Part shown: piece by piece, positions 43,146 to 60,821 of the stretch
Layout of the letters: each line of letters starts with the position of its first letter
How positions within the stretch are numbered: position 1 is the first letter of the stretch
Assembly: GCA_002838205.1 (NCBI GenBank)
Contig: CP017950.1
Span: 1,928,858 to 1,992,857 of the forward strand
Source of the DNA: Tenericutes bacterium MZ-XQ
GTDB lineage: Bacteria > Bacillota_I > Bacilli_A > Acholeplasmatales > Acholeplasmataceae
Direction: 5' to 3'
DNA: 64,000 nucleotides
Translations under genes and position numbers: made by a program
The notes under the pieces: generated by a model
Told to the model about the DNA's origin: nothing
What the model saw: the letters and a program-made list of their open reading frames with translations, nothing else
The model's database searches: none

Positions 43146-44189
43146 ATGAAACCCTTAATCAAACCTAAAAAGTTAAATCCAGGAGATACTGTAGCTTCAG
43201 TCAGTTTATCATGGGGTGGTGCAGGTGATCCAAACACTAGCTTTCGATATGACTTGGCTAAAAACCGATTAAAAGAAGTTTTTGGATTAAATCTTATAGA
43301 GATGCCTCACACATTAAAAAGTCCTGAATTCGTTTATAATCACCCGGAAAAACGTGCAGAAGATTTAATGGCTGCCTTTAAAGATCCAAACATAAAAGCA
43401 ATCTTTTCTACCATTGGTGGTGATGATAGTATCAGAATGTTACCATACATTGATTTTGATGTGATTAAAGACAATCCTAAAATCTTTATTGGTTATTCAG
43501 ATACGACTGTCGCTCATTTTATGTGTCTGAAGGCTGGTCTTAGTAGCTTTTATGGTCCTTCATTATTAGCAGAGTTTGCTGAGAATGTTGAGATGCATGA
43601 TTATACAGTAGAGCACTTAAAAAAGGCATTATTTAGCGATTTACCTATAGGAGAAATTAAACCAGCTTCCTATTGGGTTGATCAACACCTAAGATGGCAT
43701 CAAGAAACAAAAGATATCCAAAGACATCAAGCACCAAATGAAGGATATGAACTCTTACAAGGTAAAGGTATCGTCTCTGGTCATCTCATTGGTGGATGTA
43801 TCGAAGTCATGGAAATGATAAAAGCAACAACAATTTGGCCAAGTTTGGATCAGTGGAATGATGCAATCTTATTCTTTGAAACATCTGAAGATGTTCCTAC
43901 ACCTGATTATATTGAATACTGGCTTAGAAACTATGGTTCCATTGGTATTTTAAATCGTGTGAAAGGTATTGTCTTTGGGAAACCTTTCGATATGAAATAC
44001 TATGACGAATATAAAAACAGTATTTTAAAGATCGTACGTGACGAACTAAAACTTAAGGATTTGCCTATATTATATAATCTAAATTTCGGACACACAGCAC
44101 CTATGATCACGATTCCTTTTGGGGCAAAAGCAACCATTGATTGTGAACAAAGAACATTCATTATTGACGATTCTGGCGTGACAGCATAA
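43146..44189 (+). CDS. S66 family (MccF/LD-carboxypeptidase-like) serine peptidase
   Basis: A 347-residue protein: FSTIGGDDSIRMLPYIDFDV, then IFIGYSDTTVAHFM with the nucleophilic Ser, LFFETSEDVPTPDYIEYWLR with Glu and LNFGHTAPMITIPFG with His of the Ser-Glu-His triad. The length and the EDVP region point to the MccF-like branch, which cleaves toxic aminoacyl-nucleotides such as processed microcin C, rather than to the murein LD-carboxypeptidase branch. The initiation region is odd: AAAGGAG is 29 nt before the ATG with a small hairpin between. Confidence 0.82.
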   Translation: MKPLIKPKKLNPGDTVASVSLSWGGAGDPNTSFRYDLAKNRLKEVFGLNLIEMPHTLKSPEFVYNHPEKRAEDLMAAFKDPNIKAIFSTIGGDDSIRMLPYIDFDVIKDNPKIFIGYSDTTVAHFMCLKAGLSSFYGPSLLAEFAENVEMHDYTVEHLKKALFSDLPIGEIKPASYWVDQHLRWHQETKDIQRHQAPNEGYELLQGKGIVSGHLIGGCIEVMEMIKATTIWPSLDQWNDAILFFETSEDVPTPDYIEYWLRNYGSIGILNRVKGIVFGKPFDMKYYDEYKNSILKIVRDELKLKDLPILYNLNFGHTAPMITIPFGAKATIDCEQRTFIIDDSGVTA

Positions 44190-44206: not shown

Positions 44207-44242
44207 AAAGAGGATACCCGATTAAGGATATCCTCTTTTTGT
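44207..44242 (+). terminator. Terminator after the S66 peptidase gene
   Basis: AAAGAGGATA (44207-44216) pairs with TATCCTCTTT (44229-44238), followed by T-rich sequence. The opposing LuxC-like gene ends just beyond. Confidence 0.8.
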
Positions 44243-44253
44243 TTTCGATTGAT

Positions 44254-45525
44254 CTACTTTTCTAATTCTACTACTTTCGTATAAAGTCTTAATGGAAAAC
44301 TACCATCATGACTTTCTCCAGTTATCATTCTAGACATGTTATTGGCTTTTGTTAATCTTGTAACACCTGCATGAATTAATAATGATGCATAAGTTTGATA
44401 GTCATTTCTAGACACCATGAGTCCAACAGTTTGTAAATGATTCTTATGTGGTTTTAAGGTGGTGATAATGTGTTCTTTTGGAAGCATTTTAATCCAAATA
44501 CTTCTAAAAAGCATGGATAATTCTAGATTTGAATCATCAGATGTCATTACACTGATGCCGTCTTGTTGCCAAATCTTTTTACGTGTTTCGTGTTGTTCTA
44601 GTTTTTCATTGTATAACTGTAATGCGTTTTTACTTTTCATACCAAATGGGATAGGCTTATGCTTACGATTTACGTCAATAAATATCTTGAAAAATCGATC
44701 AGCAAACTGATCAAGTTCTTCTCTCGAATCAGTATCAACAAATATACCTTGTGCAGACGAACATAAAACTTGATTGGTCATTGCCATGTGATTGGCAATG
44801 CCTATTAAGTCTTCATCGCTTGCATCCAGTGTCGCATAGCCAAATGACAGTTTGTGCCCCCATTCAATAATTTTGGTTGTCACAGAAGCCATTGATCGTG
44901 CTGCCTTAACGGCAACATCACCTCCCCAAACAATAATCGCATCTGCAATATCAGCAAACATCTTCAAAGTTTCAAGTTCAGTTGATGGCACATCAAAAAC
45001 ATATATGTATGGTTTTAATTTAGGTTCTATCTCGATTAGTTCAGATAACAGTTTAACCGACACACCTCTGTCACCTGAAGGTAGTTTTAAAATATTTATA
45101 TTTCCAGCGAGTAATCCTTCAATGACTGAATATGCAGGTAAAGCATCAACATTACCTGCTGCAATATGAAATAATATACCTAATGGATATATTTTTCTTT
45201 GGACATGCTCATTTAAACCTTCTAAAGATTGATAATCTTTACCTAACTCAATTTCCATTTTTTTGAATAATGCATCTTTTTCAAACATAGGCATGTGGTT
45301 CAAAAAATAATCATAAGGAATATCAAACTCTTCGAGTAATGGCAGTATCAAATCATCATATGCTCCTTGTTTAACTTTTTGAGCGAGCTTATCACATGCC
45401 ATAACAACATCATCAATATTCAAACGATCTTGAGCTTGTAATGTCTTATAACAATCATTTCTAAGTGACTTAAGTTTTTCTGATTGCTTATGATTTTCTA
45501 ATATTTCACCATGATATAAAATCAT
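44254..45525 (-). CDS. LuxC-like acyl-CoA/acyl-ACP reductase
   Basis: A 423-residue protein of the aldehyde-dehydrogenase superfamily: KIYPLGILFHIAAGNVDALP, LLAGNINILKLPSGDRGVSV for nucleotide binding, IIVWGGDVAVKA and the Cys motif NQVLCSSAQGIFVD. LuxC reduces activated fatty acids to aldehydes with NADPH. The neighbour upstream on the same strand is LuxE-like, the partner that activates the fatty acid. No luxA, luxB or luxD is present, so the product aldehyde serves another purpose. Start after GGTGATTAT. Confidence 0.82.
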   Translation of the reverse strand: MILYHGEILENHKQSEKLKSLRNDCYKTLQAQDRLNIDDVVMACDKLAQKVKQGAYDDLILPLLEEFDIPYDYFLNHMPMFEKDALFKKMEIELGKDYQSLEGLNEHVQRKIYPLGILFHIAAGNVDALPAYSVIEGLLAGNINILKLPSGDRGVSVKLLSELIEIEPKLKPYIYVFDVPSTELETLKMFADIADAIIVWGGDVAVKAARSMASVTTKIIEWGHKLSFGYATLDASDEDLIGIANHMAMTNQVLCSSAQGIFVDTDSREELDQFADRFFKIFIDVNRKHKPIPFGMKSKNALQLYNEKLEQHETRKKIWQQDGISVMTSDDSNLELSMLFRSIWIKMLPKEHIITTLKPHKNHLQTVGLMVSRNDYQTYASLLIHAGVTRLTKANNMSRMITGESHDGSFPLRLYTKVVELEK

Positions 45526-45534
45526 ATAATCACC

Positions 45535-46656
45535 TCAGCTCTTCAAGAGATCTTCTGCACCTTGTGCACAAGTCGTAATATCTTTTATACCTACACGTCC
45601 TATGATTTCCAGCCATGGTGATTGCGCACCACATGAACATCCTTCATCGTGTAAAATCCCCAAATCATCTGTCATGATCGATAAGAGTGGAGTACCTTCA
45701 ACCATAGGTGTCAATAAATTAATAAGTCCTATTTGTCCATTAGGCACTGGTTTAAATGTATCGGGATCTCTAATAATTACCCTTGCATAAGCAGGTACAT
45801 GAAAATGATGATGTTCACAATCAATGTATAAAATAGGATGTTCAACCGCACCAAAGAATTCAACACAGTTTTTCTCTTTAATGCCTAAGACATCATGCAC
45901 AAGTCGATAGAATTCTTGTTTATCTACTTTTTCTGCATAAAACTGTTTCCATCCACCACCTACAGTGATTTTGGATCCTTTAGGCATAGTGAGTTTGATA
46001 CCTTCAGCTTCCATTTCTTTAAGCAAAAAATATGTGTATGCTGGAAAACCTATGGTTCGAATCGGTGTTCTTTTTTTAGATGCAGAAATAAAAGCTTGTT
46101 TCATATGTTCTAAATCTACTTGATATCCCTTTTCTTTTGAATAGCGGATTGCATAGATTCTCTTCTTTGCAGGTGCAACATAAGTAAAACCATATGCAGT
46201 TTTCATGATACCCGCATCACTATGTTTTGTTGGCTCATATCCGAATATCAAATAAGTGACTGGTCTCATAGACCACAACTTATGCACCGCAAACAATCGC
46301 TTTATCATCTTAAAACCACGCCAAAGGTCACCTACACTTAAGGCAATCTTACTTTTAAAACCTGTCGAAGTACCTGAAGAAGTAGCTTTGATTGGCATTT
46401 TCCATAAAGGTTTTGAAAAAAGTTCATGGTGTTTAAAATATAAAGTTGGAATAAATGGTAGATCTATCAAATCATCGATAGATTCAATGTTTGTTGGGTC
46501 GAAATTTGCTTCATCTAATATCCGCTTATAATCTTCGCAGTTATTATAATGATACATTGCGTTTTCTCGCATCGCAAGACAAAATAGATCATCTGATTTT
46601 TTCAAATCATATGGTCTTTTCAAGTTAAACAGTTTTCTTGCATATCTTCTTTTCAT
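45535..46656 (-). CDS. LuxE-like acyl-protein synthetase
   Basis: A protein of 373 residues with LuxE/AMP-binding features: IDDLIDLPFIPTLYFKHHEL, the ATP loop KATSSGTSTGFKSKIALS, FGAVEHPILYIDCEHHHFHV and GQIGLINLLTPM with LSIMTDDLG near the C-terminus. LuxE adenylates a fatty acid and passes the acyl group to a Cys of its own and then to LuxC. The start is the ATG at 46656, five bases after GGAGG. It lies 9 nt upstream of the LuxC-like gene, so the pair is co-translated. Confidence 0.82.
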   Translation of the reverse strand: MKRRYARKLFNLKRPYDLKKSDDLFCLAMRENAMYHYNNCEDYKRILDEANFDPTNIESIDDLIDLPFIPTLYFKHHELFSKPLWKMPIKATSSGTSTGFKSKIALSVGDLWRGFKMIKRLFAVHKLWSMRPVTYLIFGYEPTKHSDAGIMKTAYGFTYVAPAKKRIYAIRYSKEKGYQVDLEHMKQAFISASKKRTPIRTIGFPAYTYFLLKEMEAEGIKLTMPKGSKITVGGGWKQFYAEKVDKQEFYRLVHDVLGIKEKNCVEFFGAVEHPILYIDCEHHHFHVPAYARVIIRDPDTFKPVPNGQIGLINLLTPMVEGTPLLSIMTDDLGILHDEGCSCGAQSPWLEIIGRVGIKDITTCAQGAEDLLKS

Positions 46657-46702
46657 CATGACCTCCAAAGATTTATTATATAGACTTACTAAACATTATT
46701 TA

Positions 46703-47527
46703 TTATCTGGAATATGACCTTATTGCGCCACAATTCGGACATTTAGTCTTATCTTTAGCAATCACAGAGCCACAATATAAACAATAGTCTTTTTTCTCCT
46801 GGGTATCATCATTAGTATATTGATCTAGACTTGATCTTTGCGAACTCGATGTCTTGAAGTAATATGTTAAAGATAGAATAATTGAGAAAATCAAAATCAA
46901 TCCAATGCCTAATGCAATCCTACTCAATCGAACTGCTTCAACATAACTTCCATCATCAGATAAATCAAAATTCATATAATCGGCATTGATAGAATCTGTA
47001 TCAGATGTTAATGGTAATCTATCAACAACAATTTGGATTTCTCCTCTTCTAAAAATCCGAGAAGCTTCTTCTACCGTGTAAATAGAATACGTATACCCAT
47101 CTTCATACCATAAATCAAAGTTAGAATCTTCTATATTATAAGTGATATAATACTTACCACCTTCACCTAGAAACTGATTTGTGACTTTTGCAGTGACATA
47201 TTGATTAGGTTCAGCTGTTTCAATCATATTGAAGTAGTATGACTGATCCCTTTTGATTTGGTTTATTTTAGAAAGTTGTGTAAAAAAGAAAACACTACAT
47301 ATGACAAGCCCAAAGACTAAAAAGGATATTAAAGGACCGATTTTTGGTCCTGAATTATATCCGGATGAACCTGTTGTGTATGATCTTCTGAAGAAAGGAT
47401 ATCTATATCGATGATAGTCATTATCTCGACGCTGAAAAGATCCAAATTTGATACCTTTAGAACTTCCAATTCTAGATCCTCCAAAGCTGTGACCGCCTCT
47501 TCTTCCACCGTGAGAACCTGATGGCAT
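46703..47527 (-). CDS. Membrane protein with C-terminal zinc ribbon, unknown function
   Basis: A protein of 274 residues. The N-terminal 50 residues are rich in Gly, Ser and Arg (GSHGGRRGGHSFGGSR), followed by a transmembrane helix (about 58-80), an external beta-rich domain, a second helix and a C-terminal zinc ribbon (YCLYCGSVIAKDKTKCPNCG). The layout suggests a two-pass protein with both ends in the cytoplasm. AAGGAGGGAACACAT precedes the start. Family not recognised. Confidence 0.65.
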   Translation of the reverse strand: MPSGSHGGRRGGHSFGGSRIGSSKGIKFGSFQRRDNDYHRYRYPFFRRSYTTGSSGYNSGPKIGPLISFLVFGLVICSVFFFTQLSKINQIKRDQSYYFNMIETAEPNQYVTAKVTNQFLGEGGKYYITYNIEDSNFDLWYEDGYTYSIYTVEEASRIFRRGEIQIVVDRLPLTSDTDSINADYMNFDLSDDGSYVEAVRLSRIALGIGLILIFSIILSLTYYFKTSSSQRSSLDQYTNDDTQEKKDYCLYCGSVIAKDKTKCPNCGAIRSYSR

Positions 47528-47615
47528 ATGTGTTCCCTCCTTAACGATTATTATGTGCACATTTAAACCTTAGAAAAAAATGATTTGTTGAAGTTAATGA
47601 TTTTTGAGATATTAT

Positions 47616-49096: not shown

Positions 49097-49406
49097 GGTA
49101 GTGTCAAAAGTTTAAAATTTCGACCTACTCTCTTTCTATTTTTAATACTCTTCTTATCAATAAAAAGAGTAGTCAATCCCATGTTATAATGAATGTGCGA
49201 ACATCACATAAAAGGAGATTAACTACCTATGCAAAGTTTACCACATTTCATTCAATCTTTAAAGAGTCTAGAGCAAAATATTTATCTTATATCAACACAT
49301 CTAGAACCTCTTATGTTGAATCATCGTGTATCTGATCAGTTAGAAGAAAAACTCACTACACCTGAGATTCATGATCATATATCACTCATCACCAATCATC
49401 TAGAAA
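49097..49406 (+). mobile_element. Truncated left end of the DDE insertion sequence
   Basis: These 310 bases match 50589-50898 with only a few differences (for example GTTGAATCAT against GTTAAATCAT, and CACCAATCAT against CACCAGTCAT). The copy includes the terminal repeat starting GGTAGTGTCAAAAGTTTAA, the promoter and the first 60 codons of the transposase. The match stops at CATCTAGAAA; the frame continues into foreign sequence and ends at 49489. Confidence 0.93.
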
Positions 49407-49489
49407 ACTGTCTTGTCATTATGGAGTTTTACTCTATTTCCAACGGAGTTGCTTTTTCTGAGTGTATTAGTTTAAGTGATTATAATTAA
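49229..49489 (+). pseudogene. Transposase fragment fused to unrelated codons
   Basis: The first 60 residues are the N-terminus of the transposase at 50721; the last 26 (starting CLVIMEF) come from the flanking sequence. The fragment carries none of the zinc-binding or catalytic parts. It keeps the intact IS promoter and ribosome binding site, so a short N-terminal peptide may still be made. Confidence 0.85.
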
Positions 49490-50588: not shown

Positions 50589-52312
50589 GGTAGTGTCAAA
50601 AGTTTAAAATTTCGACCTACTCTCTTTCTATTTTTAATACTCTTCTTATCAATAAAAAGAGTAGTCAATCCCATGTTATAATGAATGTGCGAACATCACA
50701 TAAAAGGAGATTAACTACCTATGCAAAGTTTACCACATTTCATTCAATCTTTAAAGAGTCTAGAGCAAAATATTTATCTTATATCAACACATCTAGAACC
50801 TCTTATGTTAAATCATCGTGTATCTGATCAGTTAGAAGAAAAACTCACTACACCTGAGATTCATGATCATATATCACTCATCACCAGTCATCTAGAAACC
50901 CTTAATGATTTACTAACACCATTAATCAAACCCTTAAAACAACAAACAACGCCTAAGCATAAGCCATCTATGACTGGCTATGCTTCTTTTAAAATAGATG
51001 AGCCACCGATTGTTAAACAAAACCATTATAAGCAACTATCTTTTGAAGATATCCTCGCTCAATCAGAAGAGATCATTAAACCCATCAAAAGACAAAAACC
51101 ATTTTCTTATGAAGGTCTATGTCTTAACTGTGGTGCTCCAAATGAATATATCTACGCACATACAAAGACTCAAAATATGTGTAAAGTCTGTAAACAAACT
51201 TTCACTTTAAAGAAAACTTATCATGAAGAAATCACACATCATTGTCCACACTGTCATCAAAAACTTGAAGTTCAGCATATGCGTAAGGATTATGATGTTT
51301 TAATGTGTCATCATTATCAATGTCCTTTTTATCTTAAAAACAAGAAATCATTAACAGCGGGTGACGCTGATCATTTACTCATCAATGATTCTCAACACAA
51401 GCTTAGATATCACTTTAGATTGTTTAATTTCACATTGGCTTCTTTAAAGGATCTAAATCATTTGTCTATAAACTCTAAAGTAGATTTAGACAAGATCCAT
51501 CACTCTAAATATACACTAGGTTTAGTTTTGACTTATTATGTGAACTATGGATTATCCTCTAGAAAAACCGCTCAAATACTTAAGGAAGTACACGACTTAA
51601 AGTTAACACATCAAACCGTCGTTAACTACGCTGAAGCTGTCGCAGCTATCACTGAATCACTCAATGTTATTTATCCCTATAAACTATCAAACACTGTAAC
51701 TTTTGATGAAACTTATATCAAAGTCATGGGGAAATCTAATTATGTATTTTTCGGTTCAGATACCCACAATAAAATCATTACATCTTATCGGATATTTGAT
51801 CAAAGAACAACTAAAAATGCAGTCACTACACTTTTTGAAACATTTAATAAATATAGGCAATTACCTAAAAAACTTCATGTCGTTACGGATGGTAATCCTA
51901 TTTATAACGCTACACAAGTTTTCTTTAAAATGAATGATGTTAATTTCGATTTATATCAAGTCATTGGTGTAAAAAACAAAGACAGTATCTCTAAGAAATG
52001 GCGATCCTATAAACAAGCTGAAGAACGTTTAAATAGGACGTATAAGTTTAATTATCATGGTACTAATGGGTATGGAAGTTTAAGAAACGCGAACGTTTAC
52101 ATGAGTTTATTCGTCACATTTTATAATTTCTTAAGACGTCACTCATCTCTCAATTACAAGAGACCTATTGAACTTGACATCTTTTCTAAAGATGAATTGA
52201 TGCCTAATCAATGGCTCAAACTTATGGATTATACTAACTCGCTTTTTGAACAAGCAAGATATCAATCTTAATCACATTCTTCCATAACTTCCATTAAACT
52301 TTTGACACTACC
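50589..52312 (+). mobile_element. Complete DDE insertion sequence (1.7 kb)
   Basis: Terminal inverted repeats GGTAGTGTCAAAAGTTTAA (50589-50607) and TTAAACTTTTGACACTACC (52294-52312) enclose one transposase gene. No clear target duplication is seen: the left flank reads TTTATATG and the right TTATTTAA. The right end lies four bases from the stop codon of the lipid kinase gene. Family cannot be fixed without a database; the catalytic part is like IS6/IS240 transposases but the N-terminal domain is larger. Confidence 0.88.
50721..52271 (+). CDS. DDE transposase with N-terminal zinc ribbons
   Basis: A 516-residue protein. Residues about 130-200 contain two zinc ribbons (CLNCGAPNEYIYAHTKTQN with MCKVC, then HCPHCHQKLEVQ). 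Residues about 255-300 form a helix-turn-helix (YYVNYGLSSRKTAQILKEVH). The catalytic core has Asp in TVTFDETYIKVMGKS, Asp in LHVVTDGNPIYNA and probably Glu in YKQAEERLNRTYK, then a conserved FYNFLRRHSSLNYKRP. The promoter TATAAT lies at about 50680 and AAAAGGAGATTAACTACCT precedes the start. Confidence 0.88.
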   Translation: MQSLPHFIQSLKSLEQNIYLISTHLEPLMLNHRVSDQLEEKLTTPEIHDHISLITSHLETLNDLLTPLIKPLKQQTTPKHKPSMTGYASFKIDEPPIVKQNHYKQLSFEDILAQSEEIIKPIKRQKPFSYEGLCLNCGAPNEYIYAHTKTQNMCKVCKQTFTLKKTYHEEITHHCPHCHQKLEVQHMRKDYDVLMCHHYQCPFYLKNKKSLTAGDADHLLINDSQHKLRYHFRLFNFTLASLKDLNHLSINSKVDLDKIHHSKYTLGLVLTYYVNYGLSSRKTAQILKEVHDLKLTHQTVVNYAEAVAAITESLNVIYPYKLSNTVTFDETYIKVMGKSNYVFFGSDTHNKIITSYRIFDQRTTKNAVTTLFETFNKYRQLPKKLHVVTDGNPIYNATQVFFKMNDVNFDLYQVIGVKNKDSISKKWRSYKQAEERLNRTYKFNYHGTNGYGSLRNANVYMSLFVTFYNFLRRHSSLNYKRPIELDIFSKDELMPNQWLKLMDYTNSLFEQARYQS

Positions 52313-55049: not shown

Positions 55050-55075
55050 GAACAAAAGTGAATAAATTCACTAGG

Positions 55076-55102
55076 GGCGATAAAAATCGCCTTTTTCTTT
55101 TT
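55076..55102 (+). terminator. Hairpin upstream of the IS91-like transposase
   Basis: GGCGAT (55076-55081), loop AAAA, ATCGCC (55086-55091), then TTTTTCTTTTT. A transcription-blocking hairpin ahead of the transposase promoter. Confidence 0.75.
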
Positions 55103-55126
55103 AAAGTCACATTGTATAATAGATTT

Positions 55127-56452
55127 ATGGAACCTATAGTGATTAAGTATAAATTTAAAGATCAATTAGAACTTGCTCTTAAACATGGTGAACATGTCTT
55201 TAACAATGAGCTTGTTAAACTATCTAATTTAAAAGTATATAGAGATAACTCCATTTCCATTCAATCTATATTTGCTACCTATTGGGATTCATTTAAACTT
55301 CATTTTGAAGATAAACTACGTCCCTCAATTATCGAAAATGTTGAAAAAATGATACATTGTCGTGATTTCAAATATGGCTACTTCTTCTATGAATGCCCAA
55401 CTTGTGATAACTTTCATATCCAAGGTCTTTCTTGTCATTCAAGGTTTTGTCCTTCTTGTAATCAAAGATATCGAGAAGCTCGAACACTTGCGATTGAATC
55501 CAAATTACTTAAGTGCCCTCATAGACATTTTGTCTTTTCAGTTGCTAAAGAGATGCGTAAATTCTTTTGGCTTTATAGAGACTTATTTGATATCTTATTT
55601 CAAACTGTAAATGAAGTTCTTCATAAAGCTGTTAAGAAAACGAAGGCTGACCACCAATTAGATAGAAGACTTGGCATCATTTGTTTTCTTCACACCTATG
55701 GCAGAGATATGAAGACCAATCCTCATATCCATGCTTTAGTTGCTGAACGCTTTATTGATGCTCATGGTCATCTATCCAACATGTCTTTCTTTCCTTTTGA
55801 GAGACTGCGTATGTTTTGGCAATATAGACTCTTAAGTAACATCTCAGCCTATTTGAAAACCCATGCGACAAATTCTATCTATAATGAGTTTAATCGCTTA
55901 AGAAGTTATCTCATTCATAAGTATAAAAAAGGCTTTTACACTTACGGGCCTCAATTAAAGAGAAAATCTAGCTTGTCTACAGCCAAAAAGATTGCTAAAT
56001 ACATCGCCAGATATGCTTCTCATCCAGCCATCTCTGAATCTAGAATTGATGACTTCGATGATATCAATCACCAAGTCACTTGGCATTTTGATCCTCATGA
56101 AGATGATCAAATTTCAGATAAACATCATAAACGAGGTACTCAAATCATCACTGATCATGTCTTTAAATTTATTGCACGTCTCATTAAACACATCCCTGAT
56201 AAAGGATTTCATCTGATTCGTTATTACGGTTTTTATTCAAATCGGACAAAACGAAAAATTGCCTCTGAGTTAAAGTTAGTTAACCCTAAATCTTTGACTT
56301 ATCTTAAACATCAACTTCACTTTCGAACTTTGTTGCTTAAGACTTATCACTATGACATCTTTAAATGTCAGTGTGGTTCTACTATGGTTTTAAATCTTGA
56401 TGCTTCATATCTACCAAATCACCGAAAAGAGAGGTTATTTAGCGATGCCTAA
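55127..56452 (+). CDS. IS91-family rolling-circle transposase
   Basis: A protein of 441 residues. The N-terminal zinc-binding region is ECPTCDNFHIQGLSCHSRFC followed by PSCNQRYRE. Next come CPHRHFVFSVAKEMRKFF, the HUH motif in TYGRDMKTNPHIHALV, and the tyrosine region KYIARYASHPAIS; IRYYGFYSNRTKR is conserved near the C-terminus. IS91-type enzymes nick one strand and move by a rolling-circle-like process. The ATG at 55127 lies only 6 bases after TATAAT (55115-55120), so the mRNA may be leaderless; no ribosome binding site is present. It overlaps the accessory gene by 8 nt. Confidence 0.87.
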   Translation: MEPIVIKYKFKDQLELALKHGEHVFNNELVKLSNLKVYRDNSISIQSIFATYWDSFKLHFEDKLRPSIIENVEKMIHCRDFKYGYFFYECPTCDNFHIQGLSCHSRFCPSCNQRYREARTLAIESKLLKCPHRHFVFSVAKEMRKFFWLYRDLFDILFQTVNEVLHKAVKKTKADHQLDRRLGIICFLHTYGRDMKTNPHIHALVAERFIDAHGHLSNMSFFPFERLRMFWQYRLLSNISAYLKTHATNSIYNEFNRLRSYLIHKYKKGFYTYGPQLKRKSSLSTAKKIAKYIARYASHPAISESRIDDFDDINHQVTWHFDPHEDDQISDKHHKRGTQIITDHVFKFIARLIKHIPDKGFHLIRYYGFYSNRTKRKIASELKLVNPKSLTYLKHQLHFRTLLLKTYHYDIFKCQCGSTMVLNLDASYLPNHRKERLFSDA

Positions 56453-56765
56453 ACTATTTAAAACTAAATCTGTGCATATGTCTTTTGTTCAAAAAAAGAA
56501 TTTGTATGCTGAATATAAATCAGCTGTTAAGCAGGGATTCATTGCTGGCCCTGCCGCTTCATTTAATGCATTTATATCGATGCCTAATTTTGATATCATG
56601 GTTGATATGAAATGTCTGCACTGTGGATTTGAACTTACTGTCAATTTTTCTGGTTATGCTCACTTTATGGAGACTGAAGGTGCTGCTTTTCCCGTTGATG
56701 TTTGTAGTCATTGTGGTAAGTTGCAGTTTGTGCCTTTAGATATTTATCATAAACTTATTGATTAA
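56445..56765 (+). CDS. IS91-associated small zinc-binding protein
   Basis: A protein of 106 residues with two CxxC pairs (MKCLHCGFELTV and VDVCSHCGKLQFV) that likely bind zinc. GAGAGG lies upstream and the start overlaps the end of the transposase gene, so it is translated with it. It has no recognised domain; its position suggests an accessory role in transposition. Confidence 0.65.
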   Translation: MPKLFKTKSVHMSFVQKKNLYAEYKSAVKQGFIAGPAASFNAFISMPNFDIMVDMKCLHCGFELTVNFSGYAHFMETEGAAFPVDVCSHCGKLQFVPLDIYHKLID

Positions 56766-56917: not shown

Positions 56918-58123
56918 TTAGATATTCTTAAATATAATAGCTGTACCCATACCGCCACCGATACATAAAGATGCTAAACCTAAATTTTCATTACGTTTTT
57001 TCATCTCATGAATGAGTGTAACAACAATACGTGCACCACTAGCGCCAACTGGATGACCGATTGCAATCGCTCCACCATTGACATTTGTTTTTTCTAATAA
57101 CTGATCATAGTCTACACCTAAATCAGATGATAAACACTTCATGACACCAATGCTTTGAGCAGCAAAAGCTTCATTAAGCTCTAATAATCCAATTTGATCT
57201 AGATTTAAACCTGATCTATTTAATACATTTTTAACTGCTCCAACAGGTCCTAATCCCATAAACTTAGGATCAACGCCTGCTTGATCAACTTCAATAATTT
57301 CAACAAGCGGTGTCAAATGATATTTCTTAACAGCTTCTTCACTAGCAAGCATAACATATGCAGCACCATCATTAATCCCTGATGCATTACCTGCAGTGAC
57401 ACTGCCATCTTTTTTAAACGCAGCTCTTAATGTACCCAATTTTTCTAAAGATGTTTTACGATTTGGATATTCATCTTTATTAAAATGAACAACATCTCTA
57501 CCAATTTTAACATCTAGACCTACAACTTCATCATCAAAACGACCTTCATCAACTGACTTAATCGCTTTAACTTGTGATTGATAAGCAAAAGCATCTTGTT
57601 CTTCTCTAGAAATTTGATATTTTTCTGCAATATTTTCTGCAGTAATGCCCATATGAATACCATCATAAGCATCAATTAATGCATCATAGATCATATGATC
57701 AATGACTTCTAAATTACCCATTTTATATCCACTTCTACCTTTAGAAGGCATCAAATGAGGAGCTTGACTCATGGACTCAGTACCACCAGCAACGACTAAA
57801 TGTTCCCATCCAGCCTTAATCTTTAAAAAGCCGTCCATAATTGCTTTCATACCTGAACCACAAACCATATTTACTGCATAACCAGGAACTTCAATAGGAA
57901 GACCAGCTTTAATCGCGACTTGTCGTCCAATCCCTTGTCCTTGACCAGCAGGCAAAATATTTCCAGAAATCACTTCATCGATATCTTTTGGATCTACTTT
58001 TGTATCTACTAATAATTGTTTAACGACTGCTGCCCCAAACTCAGATGGTGAAGTATTAGATAAAGATCCTAAAAAACTTCCAACTGCAGTTCTCTTAGCA
58101 GCAACTACATATACTTTTGACAT
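56918..58123 (-). CDS. atoB: Acetyl-CoA C-acetyltransferase (thiolase)
   Basis: A 401-residue thiolase: Cys88 in NMVCGSGMKAIM is the acyl-carrier nucleophile, GHPVGASGARI contains the His and CIGGGMGTAIIF the second Cys. It splits acetoacetyl-CoA into two acetyl-CoA, or forms it. Last gene of the operon, 15 bp after the transporter, in the order atoDAEB as in E. coli. Confidence 0.93.
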   Translation of the reverse strand: MSKVYVVAAKRTAVGSFLGSLSNTSPSEFGAAVVKQLLVDTKVDPKDIDEVISGNILPAGQGQGIGRQVAIKAGLPIEVPGYAVNMVCGSGMKAIMDGFLKIKAGWEHLVVAGGTESMSQAPHLMPSKGRSGYKMGNLEVIDHMIYDALIDAYDGIHMGITAENIAEKYQISREEQDAFAYQSQVKAIKSVDEGRFDDEVVGLDVKIGRDVVHFNKDEYPNRKTSLEKLGTLRAAFKKDGSVTAGNASGINDGAAYVMLASEEAVKKYHLTPLVEIIEVDQAGVDPKFMGLGPVGAVKNVLNRSGLNLDQIGLLELNEAFAAQSIGVMKCLSSDLGVDYDQLLEKTNVNGGAIAIGHPVGASGARIVVTLIHEMKKRNENLGLASLCIGGGMGTAIIFKNI

Positions 58124-58138
58124 ATATTTAATCCTCTA

Positions 58139-59503
58139 TTAAAGAAGAATTAAACCTAAACCGATGATAACGCCAGAGTATAATAAAACCATTAAACAGT
58201 AACCCATAATATTCTTAGCACCAAGCTTAGCGATACCTAATACTGGTAAAGCCCAGAATGGTTGAATCATATTTGTCCAAGCATCACCCCAAGCGATTGC
58301 CATAGCTGTTTTAGCAGTATCTACACCAAGTGTAACTGCAGCAGGCATCATAATTGGAGCTTGTACAGCCCATTGTCCACCACCTGATGGTACGAAGATA
58401 TTAACGATACCAGCAGATAAGAAACTAAATAATGGGAAAGTTGTACCATTTGATACATTTACGAAGAAGTCAGAAATAGCACCAGCAAGTGATACATTAT
58501 TTTCTAAACCTTTATAAGTCATCATACCCATAATACCAGCATAGAATGGGAATTGTAATAAGATTCCACCAACACTCTTAGCAGCACTGTTAACAGCTTT
58601 AACTGTATTAATTGGAGTACCATGTAATAATATTGCAGCAAATAAGAAAATGAAAATCACGATATTTAATCCTAAGTTAAATCCATTTTCAACGAAATAT
58701 AAAATAATGAAAGTAAAGCCCATTGCTGATAATACATAGTTAATAATTCTACTATTTTCTAATTTTTCAGCAGGAGTCATTTCAGATTTAGGTTTCATAG
58801 GAACTACTGGATCATCTTCTAATAAAGCTGGATCAACAGTCTTAACTTTGTCACCTTTTGGATGCATTAATGCAAGTAATATTGGTAATGTTACTAAAAT
58901 AACACCAACAATAATTAAGTTCATAGCTGAGAAAATTGTTTGGCTAGTTGGAATTGCATCAACAACTGCTCCACCAGTTTGTGTCACTAGATTTGCTCCA
59001 CCAGTTGCAAGAGTCAAAGGGATAGATCCTGACATACCAGCATGCCAAATTAGGAATCCTGAATAAGCAGCAGCGATTAATAAAGGATAGTCAACACCTT
59101 TAACACGTTTCGCTACTTCTTTAGCGAAAATCGCACCAATAACAAGACCAAAGCCCCAGTTGATAAATGATGCTACTAAACCAATAACAGATACCCAAAT
59201 GATTGCTTGAATCTTATTCTTTGGAATAGATGCTAGCTTACCTAAACCTTTTTTAAATAAAGGTGCAGTTGCTAAAATTGTACCTGTAACTAAAATCATT
59301 GCCATTTGCATAGAAAATTGCAATAAGCTCCAGAATCCACCATACCAAGCTTCAATAATTGTAAGAGGACCTGACTGAGTTGTAATCATTGCTACTAAAA
59401 ATACTACAAACGTTAAGATGATCGCAAAGATGTATGGATCTGGTAAAAATCTTTCAACAAGTTTTACAGAACCTTGAGTCATTTTATCAAAAATCTTTTT
59501 CAT
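58139..59503 (-). CDS. atoE: Short-chain fatty acid transporter AtoE
   Basis: A 454-residue membrane protein with about ten to twelve hydrophobic segments. FIVPSGGGQ-like NIFVPSGGGQWAVQAP, MTYKGLENNVSLAGAISDFF and AWGDAWTNMIQPFWALPVLG are conserved in the AtoE family, which imports acetoacetate, butyrate and similar acids. AAGGAGAAAGAAC precedes the start. It lies between the CoA-transferase and thiolase genes. Confidence 0.9.
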   Translation of the reverse strand: MKKIFDKMTQGSVKLVERFLPDPYIFAIILTFVVFLVAMITTQSGPLTIIEAWYGGFWSLLQFSMQMAMILVTGTILATAPLFKKGLGKLASIPKNKIQAIIWVSVIGLVASFINWGFGLVIGAIFAKEVAKRVKGVDYPLLIAAAYSGFLIWHAGMSGSIPLTLATGGANLVTQTGGAVVDAIPTSQTIFSAMNLIIVGVILVTLPILLALMHPKGDKVKTVDPALLEDDPVVPMKPKSEMTPAEKLENSRIINYVLSAMGFTFIILYFVENGFNLGLNIVIFIFLFAAILLHGTPINTVKAVNSAAKSVGGILLQFPFYAGIMGMMTYKGLENNVSLAGAISDFFVNVSNGTTFPLFSFLSAGIVNIFVPSGGGQWAVQAPIMMPAAVTLGVDTAKTAMAIAWGDAWTNMIQPFWALPVLGIAKLGAKNIMGYCLMVLLYSGVIIGLGLILL

Positions 59504-59514
59504 GTTCTTTCTCC

Positions 59515-60165
59515 TTAAATTTCCATTTCTTTTATATTTTCACTAATAATTAGTGTTGCTTCTGTGTTCTTTTGAACTTCTTCAGCAGTTACACCAGGTG
59601 CTAATTCTTTTAATACAATACCTTTGTCTGTCACTTCCATTACGCCTAATTCAGTCACGATCATATCGACTTCTTTAACAGCTGTAAATGGTAGTGTACA
59701 TCTTTTTAAAATCTTTGGAGTGTCTTTTGATGTGTGTTGCATCGCAACAATCACTTTTTTAGCTCCAACTAATAAATCCATCGCACCACCCATGCCAGGA
59801 ACCATTTTTCCTGGAATAATCCAGTTCGCGATATTACCTTCTTCATCTACTTGAAGTGATCCTAATACGGTGATATCCACATGACCACCACGAATAATTC
59901 CAAATGATGTTGCACTATCAAAGAATACGCCACCAGTTGTCATGGTTACAGGTTTTCCACCAGCATTTGTTAAATCCCAATCTTCGTTTTCAGCATCCGG
60001 TACAGGACCTAAACCTAACATGCCGTTTTCAGATTGGAATGTAATATCTAATCCATGGTCAACATAGTTTGCTACCATTGTAGGAAGACCAATACCTAAG
60101 TTAACAACATCTCCATCTTTGAGTTCTTTTGCTACACGTCTAGCAATCAGTTCTTTTGGATTCAT
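59515..60165 (-). CDS. atoA: 3-oxoacid/acetate CoA-transferase beta subunit
   Basis: A 216-residue CoA-transferase subunit: VNLGIGLPTMVANYV, the catalytic Glu46 in TFQSENGMLG, GGKPVTMTTGGVFFDSATSF and IIPGKMVPGMGGAMDLL. It forms the active site with the alpha subunit and transfers CoA to acetoacetate or short-chain acids. ATGA overlap with the alpha subunit gene. Confidence 0.92.
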   Translation of the reverse strand: MNPKELIARRVAKELKDGDVVNLGIGLPTMVANYVDHGLDITFQSENGMLGLGPVPDAENEDWDLTNAGGKPVTMTTGGVFFDSATSFGIIRGGHVDITVLGSLQVDEEGNIANWIIPGKMVPGMGGAMDLLVGAKKVIVAMQHTSKDTPKILKRCTLPFTAVKEVDMIVTELGVMEVTDKGIVLKELAPGVTAEEVQKNTEATLIISENIKEMEI

Positions 60166-60821
60166 TGTTTTCCTCCTTCAACGATATAATCAACGAAAAT
60201 ATGTGGTGTAACGATGTGATCAGGGTTAATATCCCCAGCCTCCACAATTTTTCTTGCTTGTACTACAACATGTTCACAAGCTGTAGCCATAAGTGGATTA
60301 AAATTTCTTATGGTTTTGTTATAAAGGATGTTACCTTTTTTATCTACAACATGCCCTAATAAAAATGCAAAATCAGCTTTAAGTGGTTTTTCTAAAAGAT
60401 ACTTCTTACCATCTACTTCTAACACTTCTTTGCCTTCTTCAACAATCGTTCCGATGCCTGTTGGTGTTAGAAACCCACCTAAACCAGCTCCACCTGCGCG
60501 TATACGCTCAGCTAAAGTTCCTTGCGGTACAAGATCAACAATCATCGAACCTTCAGTCATTTTTTGTCCTGCAATAGGATTTAAACCAATGTGCGATGCA
60601 ATGAGTTTTTTAACTTTACCTGCATCGATAAGTTTGCCAACACCTTTGCCTGGTAAACCTGCATCATTACAGATAATCGTTAAATCTTTAACATCAGTTT
60701 TAAGCAGTTCATCAATGATTTCTTCTGCTGTACCAATGTTCATAAACCCACCAACCATGATACTTGCGCCATCAAAAACTTTAGCAACAAAATCTTTTTT
60801 AGAGATTAGTTTATTCATCAC
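60162..60821 (-). CDS. atoD: 3-oxoacid/acetate CoA-transferase alpha subunit
   Basis: A 219-residue subunit: GASIMVGGFMNIGTAEEIID, DLTIICNDAGLPGKGVGKLI, IVDLVPQGTLAERIRAGGAG and LGGFLTPTGIGTIVEEGKE. It binds CoA for the beta subunit. AAAGGAAAAC precedes the region; either GTG at 60821 or ATG at 60818 is the start. First gene of the operon, behind a promoter with an operator. Confidence 0.92.
   Translation of the reverse strand: MMNKLISKKDFVAKVFDGASIMVGGFMNIGTAEEIIDELLKTDVKDLTIICNDAGLPGKGVGKLIDAGKVKKLIASHIGLNPIAGQKMTEGSMIVDLVPQGTLAERIRAGGAGLGGFLTPTGIGTIVEEGKEVLEVDGKKYLLEKPLKADFAFLLGHVVDKKGNILYNKTIRNFNPLMATACEHVVVQARKIVEAGDINPDHIVTPHIFVDYIVEGGKQ

Follow-up and report, generated by a model that had tools for sequence, protein, structure and literature searches.

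The window, which is the whole 64,000-nucleotide stretch of DNA analysed here from a complete genome of 2,157,199 bases, contains a luxE-like and a luxC-like gene that probably encode a two-protein acid reductase. The two proteins would use ATP and NADPH to convert an acyl chain to an aldehyde, which might then be taken over by general dehydrogenases, and the genes appear to form a mobile accessory module. The pair is located at 44254–46656 on the minus strand, where the sequence-only reading had placed a LuxC/LuxE fatty-acyl reductase pair, and both genes match their Pfam families far above the cut-offs.

The luxE-like gene (45535–46656, minus strand) encodes 373 amino acids and is predicted to be an acyl-adenylating, self-acylating acyl-protein synthetase. 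It is followed on the same strand, after a gap of 9 bases, by the luxC-like gene (44254–45525, minus strand), which encodes a predicted acyl-thioester reductase of 423 amino acids. Both reading frames are full length and contain no internal stops. Alternative upstream starts of luxE are available at 46659 and 46668, the longest frame beginning with the TTG at 46668; the ATG at 46656 was considered the better start because a ribosome-binding site read from the sequence, GGAGG (46662–46666, minus strand), sits 5 bases ahead of it. The putative luxC ribosome-binding site, GAGGTG (45531–45536, minus strand), was assigned in the same way and overlaps the luxE stop codon at 45535–45537, which suggests that translation of luxE and luxC is coupled. 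A gene encoding a membrane protein with a zinc ribbon (46703–47560, minus strand) lies 46 bases before luxE. Downstream, a gene for an S66 LD-carboxypeptidase (43146–44189, plus strand) converges with luxC, and a strong hairpin is positioned between the two at 44207–44238. The RNA fold of this hairpin gave -15.5 kcal/mol on the plus strand (z -4.2) and -19.2 kcal/mol on the minus strand (z -6.8); it was not called in a pattern scan for terminators, and is likely to be a terminator common to the luxC and S66-peptidase genes.

LuxC matched Pfam PF05893 over positions 5–396 of the 401 in the profile, with an E-value of 9.7e-55 and a score of 186.5 bits (cut-off 21). LuxE matched PF04443 with an E-value of 4.4e-44 and 151.4 bits (cut-off 24.9). 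When the sequences of the PDB were searched, the sole match to LuxC was chain A of the Photobacterium phosphoreum LuxC-LuxE structure (7xc6_A, E 1.9e-14), and the top match to LuxE was 7xc6_E (E 9.1e-26), the best PaaK-type ligase being a weaker match at 1.8e-6; searches with profiles likewise led to 7xc6 for both proteins. The AlphaFold model of LuxC had a pLDDT of 93.2 and superposed on 7xc6_A over 406 residues with a Z-score of 32.6 and an rmsd of 3.8 Å, compared to a Z-score of 25.5 for the second-best entry; as modelled, LuxC has the aldehyde-dehydrogenase-like LuxC fold. The LuxE model had a pLDDT of 87.5, with low confidence in the C-terminal tail that bears Cys363. The closest solved folds to this model were the PaaK-type phenylacetate-CoA ligases (2y27, 2y4o and 4r1l, Z 27–28), of which the best gave a Z-score of 28.1 over 319 residues at 3.2 Å; these ligases headed both fold-search lists, and the LuxE chain of 7xc6 was absent from both.

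The catalytic cysteines of the Photobacterium proteins have aligned equivalents in the window pair. Cys255 of LuxC aligned with Cys285 of 7xc6_A, which we take to be the thioester-forming nucleophile of luminous LuxC, and Cys363 of LuxE aligned with Cys364 of 7xc6_E, presumably the acyl acceptor of LuxE. In alignments of relatives with redundancy reduced at 85% identity, Cys255 was invariant in all 59 LuxC sequences, as was Asn125, and Cys363 was invariant in all 58 LuxE sequences, together with Cys340 and Cys342. The sequence-only reading had proposed that the pair activates a fatty acid and reduces it to an aldehyde, unless the catalytic residues proved to be absent; they are present throughout, and the families, fold and cysteines support the predicted acid activation and thioester reduction. 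A route from acid activation through protein thioesters to an aldehyde is predicted because two enzyme families, paired cysteines and a fixed pairing of the genes occur together, and this acid-to-aldehyde chemistry is very likely to be that of the pair.

Despite the shared families, catalytic cysteines and LuxC fold, and the fact that the two genes belong together in both systems, there are clear differences between the window proteins and their luminous counterparts. The window proteins are only about 20% identical to those of 7xc6 (22% for LuxC over the structural alignment). A C340-x-C342-G motif, of a type that we take to be usual in PaaK-type ligases, was found in all 58 LuxE sequences and has no counterpart in Photobacterium LuxE. 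Both proteins also fall short of the NCBIfam equivalogs of the luminous proteins (NF052251 and NF052244), with LuxC scoring 63.5 bits against a cut-off of 750 and LuxE 112.9 bits against 550. With scores so far below these cut-offs, and such low identity to 7xc6, the substrate and partner specificity of the window proteins could differ from those of the luminous enzymes.

The window also differs from the luminous bacteria in its gene content. Neither a LuxA/B-like nor a LuxD-like protein was found among the 20 window proteins scanned, in two sets of 10 that included the pair, so the window pair has no adjoining luxD, luxA or luxB, as the sequence-only reading had observed, and its gene order, luxE-luxC, is unlike that of luminous lux. 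The bacterial-luciferase family PF00296 gave no match in the whole genome, while the control search was positive in 10 of 14 genomes; light production is therefore excluded as far as the PF00296 search reaches. The genome encodes AdhE, which scored 1278 bits (cut-off 951), as well as a class-3 aldehyde dehydrogenase with human fatty aldehyde dehydrogenase among its PDB relatives. With these two enzymes present, a dedicated gene for reduction or oxidation of the aldehyde would plausibly be unnecessary. Wax ester synthase (PF03007) had no match in the genome, though all 14 controls were silent too.

The general roles of luxC, luxD and luxE have been outlined previously (PMC3279237). In the mechanism proposed for the window pair, LuxE would adenylate a free carboxylic acid and move the acyl group onto its own Cys363; the acid most likely is a fatty acid that comes from membrane turnover or from the medium. 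The acyl group would then pass to Cys255 of LuxC, where LuxC and NADPH would reduce it to the free aldehyde. With a free fatty acid as the substrate, LuxD would not be needed. The aldehyde may be reduced to the alcohol or re-oxidised by general dehydrogenases such as AdhE and the class-3 aldehyde dehydrogenase. We infer the activity, the chain length, the cofactor, the acid source and the fate of the aldehyde. A long-chain fatty acid is the favoured substrate, if by no means a secure one, and the handling of the aldehyde by general dehydrogenases instead of a dedicated lipid enzyme is a tentative assignment.

The context of the pair was compared across public genome contigs. A search with the LuxE alignment found 238 stretches with relatives, whereas a contig search with the single LuxC protein as query found nothing. 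The best 80 of the 238 stretches, together with genomes G046 and G028 and the window, gave 83 loci spanning Acholeplasmatales, other Bacilli and Clostridia. In all 83 loci luxC directly followed luxE (77 by clustering and 6 by tblastn, two of these six ending at a contig edge), and in 72 of the 77 the two frames, taken from the first possible start, overlapped or were no more than 30 bases apart. Chance was excluded as the origin of the pair because of this constant adjacency and the profile scores. There was no conserved third gene in the 83 loci, for lipid or alcohol metabolism or otherwise, the commonest neighbour family besides luxC being present in 6. Genes for SDR proteins were located near the pair in 5 of the 83 loci, in two lineages. 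A profile built from these five neighbours found 5 SDRs among 1090 frames, all in its source genomes, and the SDR was rejected as a general partner and considered a local neighbour, since the matches were limited to the genomes from which the profile was built.

At the equivalent site of a congener, G001, three other genes (L164 5798–7162) are enclosed by the S66 peptidase (83% identity) and the zinc-ribbon gene (63–64%). They encode a DUF1801 protein, a protein of 135 aa that matched no family, and an RDD-like membrane protein scoring just under the cut-off. A tblastn search of this site revealed no remnant of luxE or luxC. The zinc-ribbon gene was considered a neighbour and not a partner of the pair, because it is kept in G001 without luxE and luxC. 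Because G001 holds three unrelated genes between the same flanks, the pair is accessory cargo at a variable site and a patchy module, which may have been gained in the window or replaced in G001.

The patchy occurrence was also seen in searches of related genomes. Of the 160 genomes of the order, 10 had a full-length LuxE relative. Among 61 near relatives, full-length LuxC was found in six, and the same six had LuxE over the cut-off; both proteins were absent from all four congeners searched. A phylum-wide draw gave LuxE at E <= 1e-30 in 13 of 392 genomes. Weak matches to the LuxC profile in another five relatives (E between 6.8e-6 and 9.9e-4, with three over the family cut-off) and short LuxE matches in 19 genomes (best E 1.1e-8 to 7.4e-4) were excluded as carriers, since their length and span resemble those of aldehyde dehydrogenase and PaaK-type proteins. 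The best 80 of the 238 contig stretches came from Acholeplasmataceae, Izemoplasma, Anaeroplasma, other Bacilli, Erysipelotrichaceae, Lachnospiraceae, Oscillospiraceae and others, and many were from gut and rumen, judged by their titles. The pair is also carried by Peloplasma aerotolerans, placed by NCBI in the Acholeplasmataceae, class Mollicutes, and of the same family as the window genome. Other organisms share the pair, and its occurrence across Acholeplasmatales, other Bacilli and Clostridia weakens the suggestion that its chemistry would be new to this type of organism.

A quick tree was calculated from 76 joined LuxE-LuxC pairs, using a short search and with long branches and unsure MAG labels. 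The window pair was positioned beside an Acholeplasmataceae MAG, a Tenericutes MAG and a MAG labelled Bacillales, within a mostly Mycoplasmatota/Izemoplasma group of 10 rows with an SH-aLRT of 99, and G028, which belongs to the window's own family, was placed elsewhere. The four classes needed 12 label changes where the minimum is 3, and this, together with the separate position of G028, fits some transfer, as far as a quick tree and unsure MAG labels allow. Such a distribution would be consistent with an accessory two-gene module carried between genomic sites and between anaerobic Bacilli and Clostridia lineages. Among viral contigs a LuxE relative was found in one of 53 candidate stretches. 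In this contig, from a viral collection, a broken LuxE frame (L165 1257–2218) is next to head and protease genes of Mu-like prophage type; the frame was rejected as a viral gene on this arrangement and taken as host DNA adjoining a prophage.

The main alternative concerns the substrate. The pair could reduce a non-fatty acid, such as an aromatic, branched or short-chain acid, and so be the equivalent of a split carboxylic acid reductase, perhaps serving fermentation as an electron sink or a detoxification step. This is unlikely, but some observations favour it: the LuxE model is nearest to the PaaK phenylacetate ligases at a Z-score of 28, the CxCG motif common to every LuxE relative is missing from the Photobacterium protein, the carriers are mostly anaerobic fermenters, judged by name, and the NCBIfam fatty-acid equivalog cut-offs are unmet. 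However, PaaK is a relative of the LuxE family as a whole, and the structural match therefore does not discriminate, and the best match to LuxC is a fatty acid reductase by both sequence and structure. In comparison with the PaaK ligases, the conserved Cys363 of the window LuxE and its fixed LuxC partner point to transfer of the acyl group to protein and not to CoA.

It is conceivable, though improbable, that a non-luminous LuxE-LuxC branch, found in anaerobic Bacilli and Clostridia and retaining the PaaK-type CxCG motif, makes a free long-chain aldehyde or alcohol for an undescribed membrane or secreted lipid in the wall-less Acholeplasmatales, and that this branch may resemble the non-luminous stock that supplied the aldehyde half of the lux operon.

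The sequence-only reading had also suggested plasmalogen-like lipids as a use for the aldehyde. Use of the aldehyde to build plasmalogens or other ether lipids would fit the origin of other pair-bearing genomes from anaerobes, such as the Anaeroplasma MAGs, and the SDR genes near the pair in a few loci. The distribution of PF09989, which we take to mark the anaerobic plasmalogen synthase, argues against it. This family was present in 58 of the 160 genomes of the order, but was absent from six of the ten luxE carriers, including the window genome; the four carriers that have it all belong to genus code g23, in which seven further genomes without luxE have it as well. Plasmalogens are known in anaerobic bacteria (PMC9131029), and the operon for anaerobic plasmalogen synthase in Clostridium perfringens, like the window pair, serves to reduce an acyl group in an anaerobe; however, as described there from Jackson 2021, the synthase acts on an intact diacyl lipid, forming the vinyl ether by reduction of an ester in the finished lipid, and a free aldehyde is not used. 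For Peloplasma aerotolerans, acid methanolysis gave mainly C16:0 and C18:0, and the main text of its description names no aldehyde derivative (PMC11122141). A precursor role is accordingly quite unlikely. Of the sequence-only reading as a whole, the enzyme families, the LuxC fold, the cysteines and the lack of a luciferase family were upheld, while the plasmalogen idea and the novelty for this type of organism were not.

Involvement of the pair in a surface-glycan or lipoglycan pathway was considered because of a published precedent, the flagellin glycosylation islands of Aeromonas, in which luxE and luxC are described outside a lux operon, as they are here (PMC7874193). In the Aeromonas islands an ACP, a 3-oxoacyl-ACP reductase and glycosyltransferases stand alongside (PMC7874193), whereas the window pair is stand-alone. 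Neither a glycosyltransferase nor an ACP appeared by name in the scan of 20 window proteins surrounding the pair, and the loci share no recurrent third family, making this pathway very improbable. Decay or inactivity of the pair, which its absence from the four congeners might indicate, is hardly credible given its uninterrupted full-length frames, intact catalytic residues, ribosome sites and likely terminator.

The presence of LuxC with LuxE is by itself ordinary for these families. If the acid reductase makes aldehyde as proposed, many gut and sediment anaerobes would carry an ATP-driven acid-to-aldehyde enzyme with no role described in the literature searched, cultivated hosts such as Peloplasma aerotolerans among them. 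Aldehydes, alcohols or their derivatives would then have been missed in routine fatty-acid profiles, and biocatalysis would gain a compact acid reductase made up of two genes. A literature search from which subscription titles were mostly absent gave no paper assigning a function to the luxE/luxC pair in Acholeplasmatales, Firmicutes or Clostridia, a weak negative.

Several other features were observed in the window. A DDE-type transposase is encoded at 50721–52271 (plus strand), and an 86-aa frame at 49229–49489 (plus strand) shares its first 25 residues with it; the shorter frame seems to be a truncated second copy of the same element. Positions 55058–56765 (plus strand) encode an IS91-like (Y2) transposase together with a small partner frame. 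In Peloplasma, relatives of this IS91-like pair occur approximately 4 kb away from luxE (L055 14922–16560), so the IS91-like pair might serve gene movement. The minus strand at 56918–60821 encodes two 3-oxoacid/acetate CoA-transferase subunits, a TIGR00366-family protein, which we take to be AtoE-like, and an acetyl-CoA acetyltransferase, a cluster resembling an operon for the use of acetoacetate or short-chain fatty acids.
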